From NCBI GenBank assembly GCA_012519695.1, contig JAAYPT010000032.1:1-59036 (forward strand): 59,036 nucleotides of DNA. Direction: 5' to 3'. The notes under the pieces were generated by a model that worked only from the letters and a program-made list of their open reading frames with translations, searched no databases and had not been told where the DNA came from. The position numbers and the translations under genes were made by a program. This document shows, in pieces, positions 33,920 through 42,748 of the stretch. Position 1 is the first letter of the stretch, and the number at the start of each line of letters is the position of its first letter. Origin of the DNA: Clostridiales bacterium. Lineage in GTDB: Bacteria > Bacillota > Clostridia > Lachnospirales > Lachnospiraceae.

Positions 33920-35441
<1,522 letters not shown>

Positions 35442-35452
35442 GGGGTGGACAA

Positions 35453-35860
35453 ATGGCAGAGGAAAACAAATTTTTCCGATTGGAAATCATAACACCGGAT
35501 CGTAACTTTTACGAAGGAGGAGCCTCTATGGTAGAATTCACATCCGTAAATGGTGAGATGGGTGTTTACAAACATCATATTCCGCTGACAACTGTTTTAG
35601 CTCCTGGAATTGTAACGATTACAGAAGCAGAAGGACAAAAAGAAGCGGCAATACATGCAGGATTTGTAGAAATCTTACCGGATAAGGTAACGTTTTTGGC
35701 AGAGATTGCAGAGTGGCCGGAAGAAATTGATGTTGCTCGTGCAGAGGCAGCTCGTGCCCGCGCCGAAGAGCGACTTCACAATCATGCAGCAGAGATAGAT
35801 GTTGCCCGTGCGGAAATTGCTTTGAAGAAGGCATTGGTACGAATTAATATTAAACAGTAA
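35453..35860 (+). CDS. atpC: F-type ATP synthase subunit epsilon
   Basis: 135-residue rotor subunit. An N-terminal beta sandwich (FFRLEIITPDRNFYEG, GVYKHHIPLTT) is followed by a C-terminal helical pair that can inhibit ATP hydrolysis. It is the last gene of the operon, followed by a strong terminator. Confidence 0.95.
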   Translation: MAEENKFFRLEIITPDRNFYEGGASMVEFTSVNGEMGVYKHHIPLTTVLAPGIVTITEAEGQKEAAIHAGFVEILPDKVTFLAEIAEWPEEIDVARAEAARARAEERLHNHAAEIDVARAEIALKKALVRINIKQ

Positions 35861-35879
35861 GATAATAAATGGTAAATAG

Positions 35880-35916
35880 AAAGGCTTTATCACATCTATG
35901 TGATAAAGCCTTTTTT
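35880..35916 (+). terminator. Terminator of the ATP synthase operon
   Basis: AAAGGCTTTATCACAT pairs with ATGTGATAAAGCCTTT and is followed by Ts. Confidence 0.9.
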
Positions 35917-36041
35917 AAATAAAAACTTAATTTTATTTAAATTTTCATAAAATATCATGTACAAAAGCCAATTTTTATAATATAATATATATTTAAAATT
36001 GTATGTGCTTCGAGGGGAGGAAATCGGAGAGAATATTGCAT

Positions 36042-36747
36042 ATGATAAAAATTGGGATTTGTGATGATGAAAAAATTGTATTAAGCGTATTAGGAACATT
36101 AGTAAAGCAGAGTTTGGAGGAATTAGAGGAAGGAGGCAAGATAATTAACTTTCACTCTGGAGAAGAGCTATTAGAAGAAGTAGAAAAATTGGATGTATTA
36201 TTTCTGGATATTGAGATGCCGGGATTAGATGGAATCGAAGTGGGAAGCCAAATACAAAAACGCAATTTAGATTGCAAGGTTATTATGGCAACCAGTAGGC
36301 AGGATCGTTTTAAAGAAGCTTTTAAGATAAATGCCTTTCGATTTATAACCAAGCCATTTCAAAAAAAGTGAAGTAAAAGAGTCTCTGGAAGATGTACTGA
36401 AAACAAGAGTCGGAATGGAAAAAATTGAGGTATATCGAGAGCGGGTACCATATAAGCTTTACCAAAAAGATATTATGTATATGGAGGCGGTAGATAGTTC
36501 TGTAGAATTTGTTTTAAGAGATGGGGTATTCCGTAAGGAAACATCGTTAAAACAATTAGAAAAAGAACTAGATGACAGGTTGTTTTTTCGCGTAAACAAG
36601 CAGTATATTGTAAATATGAAATATATTGATATTCATACATATAAAGATGGAATCATTCAGGTTGGAGCAGCAAAAATAAGGGTTTCTGTTAGAAAGAAAA
36701 AAGAATTTGAAAAAGCATACACGGTATATGACATAAACTATAGATAA
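36042..36747 (+). pseudogene. LytTR-family response regulator, frameshifted
   Basis: A receiver domain (ICDDEK acidic pair, phospho-acceptor Asp in VLFLDIEMPG, Lys in ITKPFQ) runs to a stop at 36369-36371. A LytTR DNA-binding domain continues in another frame (VPYKLYQKDIMYMEAVDSSV, then RVNKQYIVNMKYIDI) to 36747. Removing one A from the seven-A run at 36361-36367 joins them into a normal 234-residue AgrA-like regulator, with SEVKESLEDVLKTR bridging the gap. It lies directly upstream of its GHKL kinase. It may be a sequence error, a real inactivation or slippage on the A-run. Confidence 0.8.
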
Positions 36748-36758
36748 GGAGACCTATA

Positions 36759-38075
36759 ATGAAGCTGGCGTTAATATGTGAACTTGTGTTGGAAATAGTA
36801 AAATATACGTTATTATTACATGTTCTGTTTGGAACAGAAATCCGTAGAAAATGGATTGCGGGAGTATCAGTAGTTATATGGGCGATTTTATTGCTTACTG
36901 GAATGGTGCAAACAAATGATATGAAAAAAATATCTATTTTTATTATTGGTATCGTAGCTGTTACGTTATTATTGACAGCGAAAGAAGCGGTGATAAGAAG
37001 AATATTGCGTGTAGCAGCAGTATGGATTATTGCAATTACCTTAGATCAAAGTGTAGGAATTTTAGTGGAAATATTATTAAGTAAGGCAGCTTATGCGCAA
37101 TTGCGTCTAGAGCAAAAGTGGATGATTTTTAGTCTTATTTCTATTTGTGGATTATCGTTTATTTATTGGATACAGAAAAAAAGGTTGCTGGAAAAAAGTA
37201 AAGTATTTCAAGCACTGGCAAAAGGAAGCTTATATATTTGTATTGCAATTATGATGGTAGCATTACCGGCTACTGTAACAGGTTGGGAGTATTTGGGTAG
37301 AGAAATCAATAATCCGGCACTTACTTCAAAATTGCAAATATTAACAGATATTTTTCTTTTTAGTATGATTGCCCTGGCAATATTTATTATTTATGTAAAT
37401 AATACCAATAAAAGGATGAAACGCTATCTGGAAATGGAAAAGACATTAAAAGATATCCAGAAAAATTATTATGAAGCAATGTTGGCAAAGGAGGAGGATA
37501 CCCGGAGATTTCGCCATGATGTACTGAATCATTTAATTGCGTTAGGTGAATTAGCAAAGCAGGGAGAAATGAAGCCGGTTGCAGATTATGTAGAAGAAAT
37601 ACAGGGTGACATTGTGAAAATACAGCAAAAGTGTTACAGCATTGGAAACACCATTATAGATGCCTTTTTAAATTATTATGTACAAATGTTAGAGGAAGAT
37701 GTAGAAGTTAGTGTTACCGGTTGTTTAACCCAGGAAATTGCTATTAGTGATGTAGAGTTATGTACAATTTTTTCCAATCTTATTAAAAATAGTGTAGAGG
37801 AATTGAAAAAAAACGGAGAAGGTAAAAAGTACCTGAAAATAAAAGTAAGCTCTGGGCAACAGGCATTTAAGATAGAGATTTCCAATAGTATTTCAAGGGA
37901 GGGAGAAATACAGGGAGAATTGCCCGAAACCACTAAAAAAGATAAAAAGAATCATGGAATCGGGTTGAGAAATGTAACAGAAACTGTAGAAAAGAATGAG
38001 GGAATATTTGAATGGAAAGTAGCGGATGCTTGCTTTCAGACTGTGGTGACATTGCCGTTAAGGTGTAGTATATAG
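36759..38075 (+). CDS. GHKL sensor histidine kinase, AgrC-like
   Basis: 438-residue kinase. Six or so N-terminal helices (to about residue 218) are followed by a coiled segment, the phospho-His box RRFRHDVLNHLIAL (about residue 250) and a HATPase_c domain with the N box IFSNLIKNSVEEL and the G box HGIGLRNV. This is the AgrC/ComD class, which normally senses peptides outside the cell. It follows the LytTR regulator by 11 bp and is itself followed by a tiny peptide gene. Confidence 0.9.
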   Translation: MKLALICELVLEIVKYTLLLHVLFGTEIRRKWIAGVSVVIWAILLLTGMVQTNDMKKISIFIIGIVAVTLLLTAKEAVIRRILRVAAVWIIAITLDQSVGILVEILLSKAAYAQLRLEQKWMIFSLISICGLSFIYWIQKKRLLEKSKVFQALAKGSLYICIAIMMVALPATVTGWEYLGREINNPALTSKLQILTDIFLFSMIALAIFIIYVNNTNKRMKRYLEMEKTLKDIQKNYYEAMLAKEEDTRRFRHDVLNHLIALGELAKQGEMKPVADYVEEIQGDIVKIQQKCYSIGNTIIDAFLNYYVQMLEEDVEVSVTGCLTQEIAISDVELCTIFSNLIKNSVEELKKNGEGKKYLKIKVSSGQQAFKIEISNSISREGEIQGELPETTKKDKKNHGIGLRNVTETVEKNEGIFEWKVADACFQTVVTLPLRCSI

Positions 38076-38122
38076 AAGATATAATGTCATGGGTAGATTT
38101 TATAAGAAAAGGAGGAAGGATT

Positions 38123-38182
38123 ATGCTGCTAATAAGTGGATGGAGTTGGTGGGCAGATTTTTGGAGAAAGCTGTTTGGCTAA
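38123..38182 (+). CDS. 19-residue tryptophan-rich amphipathic peptide
   Basis: The frame encodes MLLISGWSWWADFWRKLFG behind a near-perfect AAAGGAGGAAGG ribosome site, 47 bp after the kinase gene. On a helical wheel the W7, W10, F13, W14, L17 and F18 side chains fall on one face and S8, A11, D12, R15 and K16 on the other. There is no signal peptide, no Gly-Gly leader and no Cys, so it is not an AgrD-type thiolactone precursor. It could be a leaderless signal, a PSM-like surfactant peptide, or the ligand of the adjacent kinase. The position and ribosome site support real translation; function is inference. Confidence 0.6.
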   Translation: MLLISGWSWWADFWRKLFG

Positions 38183-38186
38183 TAAA

Positions 38187-38226
38187 AAGTCAACGTTCAC
38201 GGGGCTAAGTCAACGTTTATGGGGTT
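38187..38226 (+). repeat. Tandem 20-bp direct repeat, LytTR-box-like
   Basis: Two head-to-tail 20-bp copies that differ at four positions, with cores AACGTTCAC and AACGTTTAT. The second matches the LytTR site consensus (T/A, A/C, C/A, GTT, N, A/G, T/G) at every position, and the first misses only the last base. The period is 20 bp, close to the 21-22 bp usual for LytTR direct repeats. A promoter begins 4 bp downstream. Confidence 0.65.
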
Positions 38227-38230
38227 ATTC

Positions 38231-38259
38231 TTGAATAAGAGCAAAAACTGTGCTATTTT
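38231..38259 (+). promoter_or_regulatory. Promoter downstream of the LytTR-like repeats
   Basis: TTGAAT (38231-38236), exactly 17 bp, then an extended -10, TGC-TATTTT (TATTTT 38254-38259). No open reading frame with a ribosome site follows, only a terminator about 115 bp downstream. Confidence 0.6.
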
Positions 38260-38265
38260 GTAAAT

Positions 38266-38416
38266 GGTAGCGAGAGGATAATTGCAGAATGAGGGAATAG
38301 TTCATAATAGAGTTGGCGAAGTGTGAGGTATGGGAAAGTAGCGGGAGACTTAAAAATATAGGGTAAGAAAAAATGCTCTGTTGTAAAACAAAAGTTTTAC
38401 AGCAGGGCACTTTTTT
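38266..38416 (+). ncRNA. Candidate LytTR-controlled small RNA
   Basis: Bounded by the promoter at 38231-38259 and the terminator at 38374-38416, giving a transcript of about 150 nt. Its frames hold only stubs of a few codons. The arrangement resembles regulatory RNAs driven by LytTR regulators, such as RNAIII with AgrA or VR-RNA with VirR. No homology to these is claimed. Confidence 0.45.
38374..38416. terminator. Strong terminator, probably bidirectional
   Basis: TGCTCTGTTGTAAAAC pairs with GTTTTACAGCAGGGCA (two G-U pairs) around AAAA, followed by C and six Ts. On the other strand the same stem ends in a T-run too, so it can also stop the minus-strand VanZ-like transcript. Confidence 0.9.
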
Positions 38417-38498
38417 ATGCAATAGGAAATTGCGTCCTATTACATAGAAAATGCTCCGCTAAGGAAGCACAACCTTGCGAAGAAGAAATTAGTCATAG

Positions 38499-39155
38499 TT
38501 AAAAATTAGTTATTTTATGATACACTTTGCGTTTTTTCAAAAGAATATCAAAGTTTTCTAATTTTGGAAGCCATCCCTTACAAAGCCCAACTAACTGATA
38601 ACCAACAAAACCACCCAAGGTATTTGCCATTAAGTCATCTACATCAAAAAGACGGTAAGAACCTGGGAACATAAAATATAATCCGGATAATTGTGTCAAT
38701 TCAAAGAAAAGACTTAACAGGAAGGAAAAAGTAACCACTTTCTTTGCATTTAAACCGAAGTAATAACTTAAAAACATTCCAAAAGGAACGGTCATAATAA
38801 TATTAAAAATAACCTGTAAAACAGCATTGTCAAGAAGAGCCGGCAGATAAGTATGAATATTTCCAAGCTGGAAAGGGGTTTCTCTTATAATGTCAGCAAT
38901 GAAATGAAAAGGAATCAGCTGAGCATCGTGTCCGGAAAGGGTAGCTGCTTTTGCAACATCCGGTAATGGAAAGATGATAAGAGAATAAGCACAAATCATA
39001 TAAAAAAGAAATAAAAAGCACATACCGATGCGTACAAAATTAAGTTTCTTTGTGGCAATTACCTGGAAAAGTAAAAGGGGTAAAGTGAAAAGTACTGCAA
39101 TAGTTGAAAAATGTTGTATGCCAAGTTTAATAGCGAATAAAAGATTGGTTGTCAT
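38499..39155 (-). CDS. VanZ-like family membrane protein
   Basis: 218-residue protein with about five hydrophobic helices. The VanZ-like core is recognisable: NIIMTVPFGMFLSYYF, then SLFFELTQLSGL and FDVDDLMANTLGGFVGY. VanZ relatives lower sensitivity to some glycopeptides and lipoglycopeptides, but most chromosomal copies have no known role. ACGGAGGCATTCTT precedes the ATG. It is a single-gene unit convergent with the LytTR locus. Confidence 0.85.
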   Translation of the reverse strand: MTTNLLFAIKLGIQHFSTIAVLFTLPLLLFQVIATKKLNFVRIGMCFLFLFYMICAYSLIIFPLPDVAKAATLSGHDAQLIPFHFIADIIRETPFQLGNIHTYLPALLDNAVLQVIFNIIMTVPFGMFLSYYFGLNAKKVVTFSFLLSLFFELTQLSGLYFMFPGSYRLFDVDDLMANTLGGFVGYQLVGLCKGWLPKLENFDILLKKRKVYHKITNF

Positions 39156-39402
39156 AAGAATGCCTCCGTTTCGTATTTATGTGTTCATATCGTTTGTTTC
39201 GTTTCTTGATGAGATAAGTATACCAAGGAGGGGATAGGGCAGCCATCGATTCGTCTTACATATCAGAGCGTAAACTTACATTTGTGTAAGAAAGAAAAAT
39301 ATTTTACAAAGTTTATATCTCCACTTTTCCCAGACCATACAATAATCTATTAAAAATGTGGTATACTATACAAAAAAGATAACGGTAATGGAGGCTTTTG
39401 GC

Positions 39403-40572
39403 ATGAAAGAAATGTTATTAATTAAACAGGGAAATGTGTATGATGCCATTCACGAAGAACCTTATGTGGCGGATATTTTGGTGGAAAACGGAAAAATCAT
39501 ACAGATTGCGCCTGTATTAGAAGGAAAAATCATAAACGAGGCACAGATATTGGATGCATCTGATATGAATGTGTATCCGGGATTCGTAGAAGCGCATTGT
39601 CATTTGGGATTAGACGGATATGCAATTGGATTTGAAGGAGCAGACTATAACGAAATGACAGATTCTTTAACCCCACAGTTGTCAGCAATTGATGGATTGA
39701 ACCCGCAGGACGAAAGCATACGTTTGGCAATGGAAGGGGGAGTTACCTGTGTGGCAGCAGGACCGGGAAGTTCTAACGTACTTGGAGGAACATTTACTGC
39801 GTACAAGACCACAGGAAAACGAATAGACGATATGGTAATTCGGGAAAAGGTGGCAATGAAATGTGCCTTTGGAGAAAATCCAAAACGTTGTTACAAAGAC
39901 AAGGATAACTACTCTCGAATGAGTACGGCATCCAAACTTCGTATTATGTTGAATAAGACCATAGAATATATGGAAAAGAAAAAAGCCGCAGGGGATGATA
40001 TTTTCAAAAAGCCTGCCTATGATCCAAAGCTCGAAGCATTAATTCCGGTAATAGAAGGAAAAATGCCATTAAAGGCGCATGCGCATCAGGCAAATGATAT
40101 CTATACAGCAATTCGAATTGCCAAGGAGTACCATCTTGGACTTACCATAGACCATTGTACTGATGGAGTACTTATTGCAGATGACTTAGCAAAAGAGGGA
40201 TTTCCGGTTGCAGTAGGCCCATCTTTTGGACATGCTACAAAATTTGAATTAAAAAATAAAAGCTTTACTACACCGGGCGTTTTGGCAAAGGCAGGATGTC
40301 AGGTATCAATTATTACCGATTCACCGGTGATACCGGAACAGTATTTATCCTTATGTGCAGGACTGGCTGTAAAAAACGGAATGGATGAATTTGATGCGTT
40401 AAAGGCAATAACCATTAATGCAGCAAAACATATTGGGGTTTCTGACAGAGTAGGTTCTATTGAGATAGGAAAAGATGCAGATTTTGTAATTGCAAAAGGA
40501 AATCCGATGATTTCAGAGACAAAACTTGATTTTGTCATTATAGATGGAGTAATAAGGTATTCCGGAAAATAA
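39403..40572 (+). CDS. Metal-dependent amidohydrolase
   Basis: 389-residue TIM-barrel hydrolase of the imidazolonepropionase/dihydroorotase-like superfamily. Metal ligands are visible in EAHCHLG (HxH), LKAHAHQAND, TIDHCTDG and the Asp in ITDSPVIP; the end IGKDADFVIAKGNPM is typical. The substrate is not predictable from sequence. The first open codon is at 39358, but TGGAGG is placed for the ATG at 39403. A TATACT -10 lies at 39362-39367. No pathway partner is adjacent. Confidence 0.85.
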   Translation: MKEMLLIKQGNVYDAIHEEPYVADILVENGKIIQIAPVLEGKIINEAQILDASDMNVYPGFVEAHCHLGLDGYAIGFEGADYNEMTDSLTPQLSAIDGLNPQDESIRLAMEGGVTCVAAGPGSSNVLGGTFTAYKTTGKRIDDMVIREKVAMKCAFGENPKRCYKDKDNYSRMSTASKLRIMLNKTIEYMEKKKAAGDDIFKKPAYDPKLEALIPVIEGKMPLKAHAHQANDIYTAIRIAKEYHLGLTIDHCTDGVLIADDLAKEGFPVAVGPSFGHATKFELKNKSFTTPGVLAKAGCQVSIITDSPVIPEQYLSLCAGLAVKNGMDEFDALKAITINAAKHIGVSDRVGSIEIGKDADFVIAKGNPMISETKLDFVIIDGVIRYSGK

Positions 40573-40879
40573 AAGGACATAATCGGAAGGAAAGCGCTGC
40601 CTTGCGACAACGCTTTGGGGGGAGTAAATTTATGAAATGTTTCATGGGGTGCCACATCTTGGGCGGTGGCACCAACAATCTATAGGATAATTTGCAATTG
40701 CCATAAAGGCAATTACAATAATTTTTTGGCGAAGCCAATAACGATGCGCGCTGTGTTGTTATCAACTTCATTTGATATATTTAGTATAAAAAAGAAATGT
40801 GTGCAAACTGTGGACAATTTCTAAAAGAAAAATAAAAAAGTCGAAAGAAATTATGAAGAATTGGTAAAGGAGTTTTAAA
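40573..40879. other. Intergenic stretch with hairpins
   Basis: No gene supported. Contains AAAGCG with CGCTTT around 40592-40616, GGTGCCAC with GTGGCACC near 40650-40673, and TTGCAATTGCC with GGCAATTACAA near 40690-40722. These are untyped hairpin-rich repeats that may end or stabilise the upstream transcript. Confidence 0.5.
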
Positions 40880-42748
40880 ATGGAGAAAAATACCAAAGAG
40901 ATAAATATTGTTTTTACCCATGATCTTCATTCCCACCTGGAACCTTTTTATATGGAGGAAGCAGGAAAGGAAAAAGTAGGGGGATTTGCACGAATAAAGA
41001 CATATTTAGAAAAGAGACGGGCAGAGGACGAAAATCTGCTGTTTCTGGACGGTGGAGATTTTTCGATGGGAACTTTGTATCAAACTGTATATGAGACACA
41101 AGCGGCAGAGCTTCGAATGCTTGGTTTTTTGGGAGCAGATGTTACCACCTTAGGGAACCATGAATTTGATTATCGAAGCCAGGGGTTAATAAATATGTTG
41201 ACTACAGCAAAAAACAGTGGGGAAAAACTGCCGGACATAGCACTTTGCAATGTAGATTGGGAAGCAACATTAAAAGGGGAAAAGAAAGAGGCCGGTGCAC
41301 TTTTACAAAAGGCGTTTAAAGAGTGTGGAATACGCAAGTATGTAATTTTAAAAAAGGGAGAACTTAAAATAGCAGTTATCGGTGTATTTGGAAAAGATGC
41401 ATTGGCTTGTGCCCCTACTTGTGCATTAACCTTTCAAGACCCCATAGAAGCTGTAAAAGAAACAGTAGAAAGAATCAAAAAAACAGAAGCAGTTGATATG
41501 ATTATCTGTCTTTCTCATAGTGGAACATGGGAGGAAGAAAGTAAGTCAGAGGATGAACTGTTGGCAAAGGCAGTTCCGGAACTGGATTTGATTATCAGCG
41601 GTCATACGCACAGTATATTAAATAAGCCGATTATACACGGTCATACAGCCATTGTATCTACCGGAGAATATGGTGCAAGAGTTGGTGCGGTAAAACTTAT
41701 GCAGCAGGAAGACCATCGCTGGAAAGTAAAAGATTATGCACTTGTGCTTATGGATGATACATATGCATTAGATGTAAAAACAGAAGAAAAAGTAAAAAAA
41801 CTGGGAGAAAATATCGACCGGGAATATTTAAAACAGTTCGGGTATACCAAGAATCAGGTGCTAACCCACAATCCATGGCAGTTTACGAAAATAAATGGAT
41901 TGGGAAGTGTTTTAAAAGAAGAAACGCTGGGAAATCTTTTGGCAGATTCTTATTTATATGCGGTAAATAATAGTGATACAGGAGATCATACACCGGCGGT
42001 GGTAGCGGTGGTACCCAGTGGTTGTATTCGTGATACCTTTCATAAAGATACCGATATTACAGTAGCAGATGCATTTCGAACATTATCCTTAGGAATCGGA
42101 CCAGATGGAATACCGGGATATCCTCTGGTGAGCATTTATCTGACCGGAGCAGAATTAAAGACTATGGCAGAAGTAGATGCATCCGTATCGCCTATCATGA
42201 CAACGGCGCAGCTTTATTCCAGCGGAATAGCCTATACCTTGAATCCTCACCGACTTATTTTAAATAAGGTAACTGAGGTAGATTTGCAGGATATGACGGG
42301 AAAAACCAGGGATTTACAAAATGATAAGTTATATTGCGTGGTGGCAGATTTATATAGCGGACAGATGTTTGGAACCGTGTCGGGGCAGTCTTTTGGAATT
42401 TTATCGGTGACACCAAAAGATGCAAAGGGAAACAAAATTCCCATAGAAAAACTGGAAGATTATATTGTATATCGTAATGGACAAGAATTAAAAGCATGGA
42501 TATGCGTAGCAGATTATCTGAATTCTTTTGAAAAAGTAAATGGAAAGTCTCAGATTCCGGAATATTACAAAACCACCCACAATCGAAAAATCATTGACAA
42601 TGATAAAAGTATGCGGGCAATTATAAGAAAACCGAATAAAATTGCAATTGCTATGGCAAGTATTGCAGCAGGTGTCATGTTGTTCTTTTTGACCATGGGA
42701 ATATTCGTTATAAAGTTCATAAAACATAAACGCAGAAAAAAGTCCTAA
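40880..42748 (+). CDS. 5'-nucleotidase/metallophosphoesterase, C-terminally anchored
   Basis: 622-residue protein of the 5'-nucleotidase/2',3'-cyclic phosphodiesterase family. The metallophosphatase part has FTHDLHSHLEPF, DGGDFSMGTLY, TLGNHEFDYRS and ISGHTHSI; a 5'-nucleotidase C domain follows (about residues 330-550). A C-terminal helix (about 590-615) and basic tail KHKRRKKS look like a wall or membrane anchor. The N-terminus (MEKNTKEINIVFTHD) has no signal peptide although the ATG follows a clear AAAGGAG, which is unusual for an exported enzyme. Confidence 0.88.
   Translation: MEKNTKEINIVFTHDLHSHLEPFYMEEAGKEKVGGFARIKTYLEKRRAEDENLLFLDGGDFSMGTLYQTVYETQAAELRMLGFLGADVTTLGNHEFDYRSQGLINMLTTAKNSGEKLPDIALCNVDWEATLKGEKKEAGALLQKAFKECGIRKYVILKKGELKIAVIGVFGKDALACAPTCALTFQDPIEAVKETVERIKKTEAVDMIICLSHSGTWEEESKSEDELLAKAVPELDLIISGHTHSILNKPIIHGHTAIVSTGEYGARVGAVKLMQQEDHRWKVKDYALVLMDDTYALDVKTEEKVKKLGENIDREYLKQFGYTKNQVLTHNPWQFTKINGLGSVLKEETLGNLLADSYLYAVNNSDTGDHTPAVVAVVPSGCIRDTFHKDTDITVADAFRTLSLGIGPDGIPGYPLVSIYLTGAELKTMAEVDASVSPIMTTAQLYSSGIAYTLNPHRLILNKVTEVDLQDMTGKTRDLQNDKLYCVVADLYSGQMFGTVSGQSFGILSVTPKDAKGNKIPIEKLEDYIVYRNGQELKAWICVADYLNSFEKVNGKSQIPEYYKTTHNRKIIDNDKSMRAIIRKPNKIAIAMASIAAGVMLFFLTMGIFVIKFIKHKRRKKS

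Follow-up and report, generated by a model that had tools for sequence, protein, structure and literature searches.

A conserved LytTR-type box pair ahead of an apparently non-coding candidate transcript, beside a GHKL kinase, a LytTR regulator and a candidate peptide

Genes and signals at the locus

The window, the 59,036-nucleotide stretch of Lachnospiraceae DNA analysed here, carries on its plus strand a response regulator, a GHKL sensor kinase, a tiny tryptophan-rich peptide frame, a pair of direct repeats, a promoter and a terminator, with a candidate RNA between the last two (Table 1). Profile matches bear out the sequence-only reading, which had placed a LytTR regulator and a kinase just upstream of the repeats, though the regulator is split in the window assembly; a frame break at an A-tract (36355-36371) separates its receiver frame from its LytTR frame. 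The gene is intact and in one frame in two relatives from the genus, G026 and G006, and the break may stem from polymorphism, from slippage or from an error of assembly. Kinase identity to the window is 65% in G026 and 57% in G006. Missing from the earlier reading was the 19-aa tryptophan-rich frame, with its strong Shine-Dalgarno sequence, between kinase and repeat. Across the whole window no Rfam family matches above its curated threshold.

Table 1. Features of the locus, in window coordinates
Feature	Position	Strand	Remarks
Best promoter-like site ahead of regulator gene, TGTACA-N17-TATAAT	35958..35986	+	LytTR box pair absent nearby
Response regulator, receiver half	36042..36371	+	Response_reg 3.1e-19; frame stops after A-tract near 36355
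LytTR DNA-binding half of regulator	36415..36747	+	LytTR PF04397, 2.5e-15; frame differs from receiver half
GHKL (AgrC-type) sensor kinase, 438 aa	36759..38075	+	HATPase_c_5 PF14501, 3.5e-19
Trp-rich 19-aa peptide frame MLLISGWSWWADFWRKLFG	38123..38182	+	aggaggaagg precedes; counterparts at same place in G026 and G006
Pair of 20-bp LytTR-type direct repeats	38187..38226	+	
Promoter TTGAAT-N17-TATTTT, TGC before -10	38231..38259	+	
Candidate RNA body, 5' end inferred	38266..38372	+	Purine-rich, 6% C; shared cores GGGAARGTAGCGGGAG and ATATAGGGTAAG
Long terminator hairpin and T run	38373..38416	+	
VanZ-like gene, convergent	38499-39155		Downstream of terminator

The 20-bp tandem repeat reported earlier is present when read directly: its units (38187-38206 and 38207-38226), aagtcaacgttcacggggct and aagtcaacgtttatggggtt, stand head to tail and agree at 17 of 20 bases. 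The -35 element TTGAAT (38231-38236) likewise lies 4 bp past the repeat end, as had been said. The promoter as formerly written, TTGAAT-N17-TGCTATTTT, holds in part; the spacer of 17 is right when counted to TATTTT (38254-38259), but the TGC had been counted twice, the spacer to TGC being 14. The strong terminator, put at about 115 bp beyond the -10 box, starts 114 bp past it, with 16 pairs at 38374-38409 and a T run to 38416. When the interval 34000-42000 was scanned, this hairpin was the only plus-strand terminator-like site listed between the regulator gene and 41035, and it is therefore probably common to the operon mRNA and the candidate RNA.

Consensus scoring contributes nothing to this picture. 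A 9-of-12 promoter scan of 34000-42000 returned 25 sites where shuffles give 26.6 (sd 6.4), the RNA promoter at 38231-38259 not being among them, and the same scan gave 4 terminators against 4.9; since neither count rises above shuffles, we do not use the scan as evidence. We judge the locus to be above chance because it is conserved, as seen in the matches to its box pattern against their control and in a promoter geometry common to them.

Conservation, coding potential and structure of the candidate RNA

Across the genus the gapped repeat-pair pattern matches five times in 29 genomes, and its reversed form, used as control, not once. Two matches fall in the window genome (G000), one in G026 and two in G006; three are promoters of the RNA, one belongs to a paralogous peptide system and one to a sortase-pilus operon. 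The five promoters share a box period of 20 (once 21), 6 bp from GGGG to TTGA, a spacer of 17 and a TGC before the -10. A DNA search with 238 bases of the unit recovers the same three genomes, which alone give strong hits among the matches listed (2.7e-121, 1.5e-34 and 2.1e-29); the next best of these (0.002) spans 31 terminator bases. The sequence-only reading had staked itself on conservation beside homologous LytTR genes, and the unit is found beside them in 3 of the 29 genus genomes, in the order kinase, tryptophan-rich peptide of 18-20 aa, paired repeats and promoter, then an RNA poor in C (about 150-160 nt) and the terminator. The neighbourhood in G026 is syntenic with the window, with ATP synthase genes on one side and a VanZ-like gene on the other as judged by likeness. 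The downstream sequence differs in G006, so that the candidate RNA is independent of its VanZ-like neighbour.

A covariance model was also run against 397 genomes drawn evenly from the family. Eight matches pass E 0.001, one being the window's own, and we set the other seven (4e-7 to 9e-4) aside as terminator look-alikes: the core is missing from all of them even when one change is allowed, and a loose CGTT pair accompanies only that in L087, on the opposite strand. No further credible copy of the RNA was found among these 397 genomes. As G026 and G006 do not appear among the matches, they are not part of that sample.

Identity to the window is 0.875 (G026) and 0.850 (G006) in the repeat pair, and 0.677 and 0.742 in the promoter region (38229-38259). 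The RNA body reaches 0.766 in G026 (107 aligned positions, 10 gap columns) and 0.696 in G006 (102 aligned positions, 15 gap columns), or 0.701 and 0.607 with gap columns taken as differences. Third codon positions of the kinase give 0.599 and 0.531, the sequence past the terminator 0.489 (45 aligned, 37 gap columns) and 0.380 (79 aligned), and the kinase-to-peptide stretch 0.458 and 0.604 (48 aligned each, with 0 and 27 gap columns). The peptide segment entered this comparison as 38124-38183, shifted by one base from the frame itself, and it carries none of the conclusions. Coming from three distinct sequences, the evidence that the RNA body would be under selection is good but not overwhelming.

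These values bear on a reading under which the LytTR promoter is real and its RNA a functionless by-product, either the leftover leader of a peptide gene formerly placed behind the boxes, as it is in most relatives examined, or the 3' end of the operon, so that promoter and terminator are what matter. Against it, the body is conserved above third codon positions in both comparisons, identity drops past the terminator, and stretches of 10 and 12 bases within the body are invariant in the three species. Folding speaks on its side, as the body does not exceed shuffles in two of the three species (z of -0.28, -0.77 and -3.09). We consider this by-product reading rather unlikely, and return to it below with the order of peptide and boxes at other loci. 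The whole RNA with its final hairpin gives z of -4.8, -7.1 and -7.5. Over the three species 98.5% of 68 cells are paired across the 23 pairs of the terminator hairpin, and four pairs are changed on both sides, a number that 46 of 500 shuffles reach. RNAalifold also paired the -10 region with the RNA core; we discounted these pairs, as a transcript from this promoter would not contain the -10.

The earlier statement that no gene lies between promoter and terminator holds as far as tested, in that no reading frame is common to the three species. Plus-strand frames in the window RNA have 12, 14 and 17 codons with GTG or TTG starts, and the 65-aa frame on the minus strand (38225-38422) lacks an open counterpart, all three frames containing a stop in both relatives. 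Another reading would make the transcript the mRNA of a micro-peptide of 12-16 codons, VRYGKVAGDLKI in the window and MRYGKVAGDFRIKDIG in G026. These two genomes do share the MRYGKVAGD frame, and in G026 an AGGAG stands just ahead of its ATG; the start in the window is, on the other side, a GTG with a weak site, and in G006 the start is lost and the frame shifted by a one-base indel while the core nucleotides are kept. Two further short frames, common to G026 and G006, sit inside the terminator and are missing in the window. We give the micro-peptide little chance; with no frame common to all three species, a non-coding RNA is the best reading. A conserved, apparently non-coding unit with its own terminator, and with a LytTR-type box pair upstream of its -35, is what a LytTR-controlled regulatory RNA would be expected to look like.

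The RNA body is purine-rich in all three species, with 6-8% C, and its GGA motifs raise the question of CsrA. A CsrB-like RNA could titrate CsrA through GGA motifs in hairpin loops, the sensor thereby switching motility or further targets of CsrA. All three genomes encode CsrA, the copy in the window genome adjoining FliW-like and flagellar-like frames by eye. Predicted hairpin loops hold 3 of 4 GGA motifs in the window, a placement that 0.024 of shuffles reach, and 3 of 6 in G026 (0.046). The pattern does not extend to G006, where a single motif of the 5 is in a loop, as in 0.60 of shuffles. Moreover, the totals of 4, 6 and 5 GGA motifs show no excess over dinucleotide shuffles (shares 0.68, 0.18 and 0.63), and the small stems are weak and poorly kept across the three species. 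We rate such a sponge as improbable.

Box pairs and tryptophan-rich peptides at other loci

The single match to the box pattern in G026 is the RNA promoter, as is one of the two in G006; the other precedes a second tryptophan-rich peptide in a paralogous system (L003). At this paralogue (L003:6284-7400) the boxes overlap the kinase end, and a 25-aa tryptophan-rich peptide stands behind the promoter, followed by larger genes. The second box pair of the window genome precedes a sortase-pilus operon (L077:6004-15525, on G000:C64) with a 1984-aa LPXTG protein (TTG start as read), a pilin backbone (PF16569, 4.1e-31) and a sortase (PF04203, 8.5e-23). No box pair was found in the 16 kb read at a second pilus operon of the window genome (C101; pilin 70% alike), nor in the 16 kb read at the pilin-like operon of G006 (C1). 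The pilin has no match in G026 at E 1e-15 and a distant one, 35% alike, in G006. As the pilus link is not shared, the candidate RNA would be the single output that all three species have. The RNA body pairs no better than shuffles with the pilus leader, the regulator start, the kinase start, the start of the peptide mRNA or the kinase mRNA (0.18-0.93 of 300 as strong).

To see the unit in a wider frame we compared kinase loci: the window, L002 and L003, together with loci from at least 43 kinase matches (30 of 43 with a locus). L006 and L031 (duplicates of L002 and L003) and L004 (the window itself) were left out, and the segment of L029 reaches just 276 bases beyond the kinase. Of thirty loci examined, L010 proved to have no kinase frame and was dropped, which leaves 29. 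The box pair recurs beside homologous genes here too, a CGTT-N15-18-CGTT pair lying near the kinase end (from -40 to +320) in 21 of 29 loci. A short tryptophan-containing peptide frame occurs within 450 nt in 22 of 29 loci, whereas the reverse strand of these segments, used as control, gave none in 29; the peptide criteria were set after many of the peptides had already been viewed. Eighteen of the 29 have both.

The order of the two differs between loci. At 15 of these 18 loci the boxes come first and the peptide, which is likely to be the output there, follows; in the remaining three, which are the three species described here, the peptide precedes the boxes and the candidate RNA follows them. 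The order at the 15 loci lends the by-product reading its other support, as does the peptide of L003, which starts right after the promoter. For our part we see in it a rearrangement from peptide output, which is likely, to what would be an RNA output, and regard this as the main new point.

The peptides themselves are 15-27 aa long, hydrophobic and tryptophan-containing, often show ...W..LK+LFG and are encoded just downstream of GHKL kinases. They occur in the window and at L002, L003, L005, L007-L009, L011, L014-L016, L018-L025, L027, L030 and L033, L014 and L018 belonging to two other genera of the family. We regard them as candidate pheromones or membrane peptides, and this wider family, present beside 22 of the 29 kinases, may be more rewarding to follow than the RNA. 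Short, hydrophobic, tryptophan-rich peptides could be membrane-active or bacteriocin-like instead of signals, with the RNA controlling their translation. Such an arrangement would be compatible with the regulatory RNA that we favour, but pairing between the RNA and the start of the peptide mRNA is within shuffles (0.18 as strong), and we hold it to be improbable.

Two observations by eye concern what lies behind the boxes at other loci. L019 and L021-L025, and less clearly L020, carry a similar leader of about 110 nt, ACTTTCCGAT... to GCGGAGGTG, between the LytTR promoter and the peptide start; it sits about 60-170 nt behind the box pair and is possibly structured. At L013 and L032 a short hairpin-like sequence and a T run come directly after the boxes, possibly an attenuator or another short RNA, and no tryptophan-rich peptide was found at either.

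Proposed circuit and comparison with known systems

The whole unit, a conserved LytTR box pair and an apparently non-coding candidate transcript joined to a kinase, a regulator and a candidate peptide, is supported at the level of sequence. The explanation to which we lean, as somewhat probable, is that a LytTR-activated promoter makes a non-coding, trans-acting regulatory RNA, the output of the adjoining two-component system. From this anatomy we infer transcription, activation, signal and mode of action as follows. The tryptophan-rich peptide, as the presumed signal, would activate the GHKL kinase, and the LytTR regulator would bind both repeats upstream of the -35 and recruit RNA polymerase. 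The RNA so made, of about 150-160 nt, would end at the hairpin probably shared with the regulator-kinase-peptide operon. It would most likely act in trans, base pairing with mRNAs through its G-rich, C-poor conserved core, and do so without Hfq, for which no match was found in any of the three genomes (a control search was positive in 5 of 14 known genomes). The missing Hfq counts against this explanation, as do the split regulator, the unshared pilus link, the pairing within shuffles and the lack of credible further copies among the 397 family genomes. Because the same boxes precede the sortase-pilus operon in the window genome, one signal would there govern a surface structure as well as a regulatory RNA.

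A broader scheme is possible, though we hold it as doubtful. It describes a quorum circuit without AgrB, in which a short unmodified tryptophan-rich peptide (roughly M..W..LK+LFG) would be read by a GHKL kinase and answered by a LytTR regulator through paired boxes. The peptide would be the output, by autoinduction, in most species examined; in the clade of the window it would have lost its link to the boxes, its place being taken by a new regulatory RNA independent of Hfq, and one species would have gained the sortase pilus as a further output.

LytTR-driven regulatory RNAs are known from pathogens and form a short list. If the favoured explanation is true, an RNA that has no Rfam family would join this list from beyond the pathogens known to us, a chain from signal to surface would run through peptide, kinase and LytTR boxes to the RNA and the pilus, and the kinase-adjacent peptides would be a candidate new class of pheromone.

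The agr locus of Staphylococcus aureus combines a peptide, a GHKL kinase, a LytTR regulator and an RNA, and RNAIII is about 500 nt long. The layout analogous to agr/RNAIII that had been proposed from the sequence stands in part. A candidate peptide, a GHKL kinase adjoining a LytTR regulator and a candidate RNA do lie together in the window, as read from sequence, but without AgrB, apparently without an AgrD-like peptide and without boxes ahead of the operon; the RNA, at about 150 nt, would also be far shorter than RNAIII. AgrB (PF04647) has no match in the window genome, one in G026 and two in G006, none of them near the locus. No CGTT-N15-18-CGTT pair, which autoinduction as in agr would call for, precedes the regulator gene, and the 19-aa peptide, judged by eye only, does not appear to have the layout of AgrD. 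By the tests run, the locus does not belong to the agr family.

Closer counterparts exist in clostridia, where regulatory RNAs driven by LytTR proteins through paired repeats are already established, as the passages available from two papers report for VirR/VR-RNA (PMC2838878) and RgaR/SpoZ (PMC10602386). Among the titles and abstract openings listed from the open-access literature, most lists giving part of the matches (10 of 698 in one), there was no description of such a system as found here, subscription journals and preprints being outside the scope. In Clostridium perfringens, the available text of PMC2838878 places a pair of imperfect direct repeats directly ahead of the -35 at VirS/VirR targets, which include toxin genes and the regulatory VR-RNA. 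The position of the paired repeats right before the -35 and a regulatory RNA among the targets are thus points of likeness to the window. Its other targets differ, its repeats are separated by 7-8 nt (PMC2838878), and VirS responds, according to the available part of PMC10602386, to an Agr-type peptide, whereas no AgrB is found at the window locus.

The same part of PMC10602386 describes in Clostridioides difficile an AgrC-like kinase (RgaS) and a VirR-like regulator (RgaR) with direct repeats upstream of the small RNA SpoZ, a set of parts that resembles the window. In the SpoZ promoter the mutated G residues lie at -51 and -72, hence 21 bp apart; RgaR has few direct targets; and Agr regulons are said generally to include a gene for such a regulatory RNA, RNAIII being named (PMC10602386, available part). 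Unlike the genes of the window, those for RgaS and RgaR lie apart, and SpoZ copurifies with Hfq, for which the three genomes here gave no match; a linked tryptophan-rich peptide, present in the window, goes unmentioned for SpoZ in that part of the paper. By analogy, the case described here probably works like VirR/VR-RNA and RgaR/SpoZ, but it adjoins an unusual tiny tryptophan-rich peptide.
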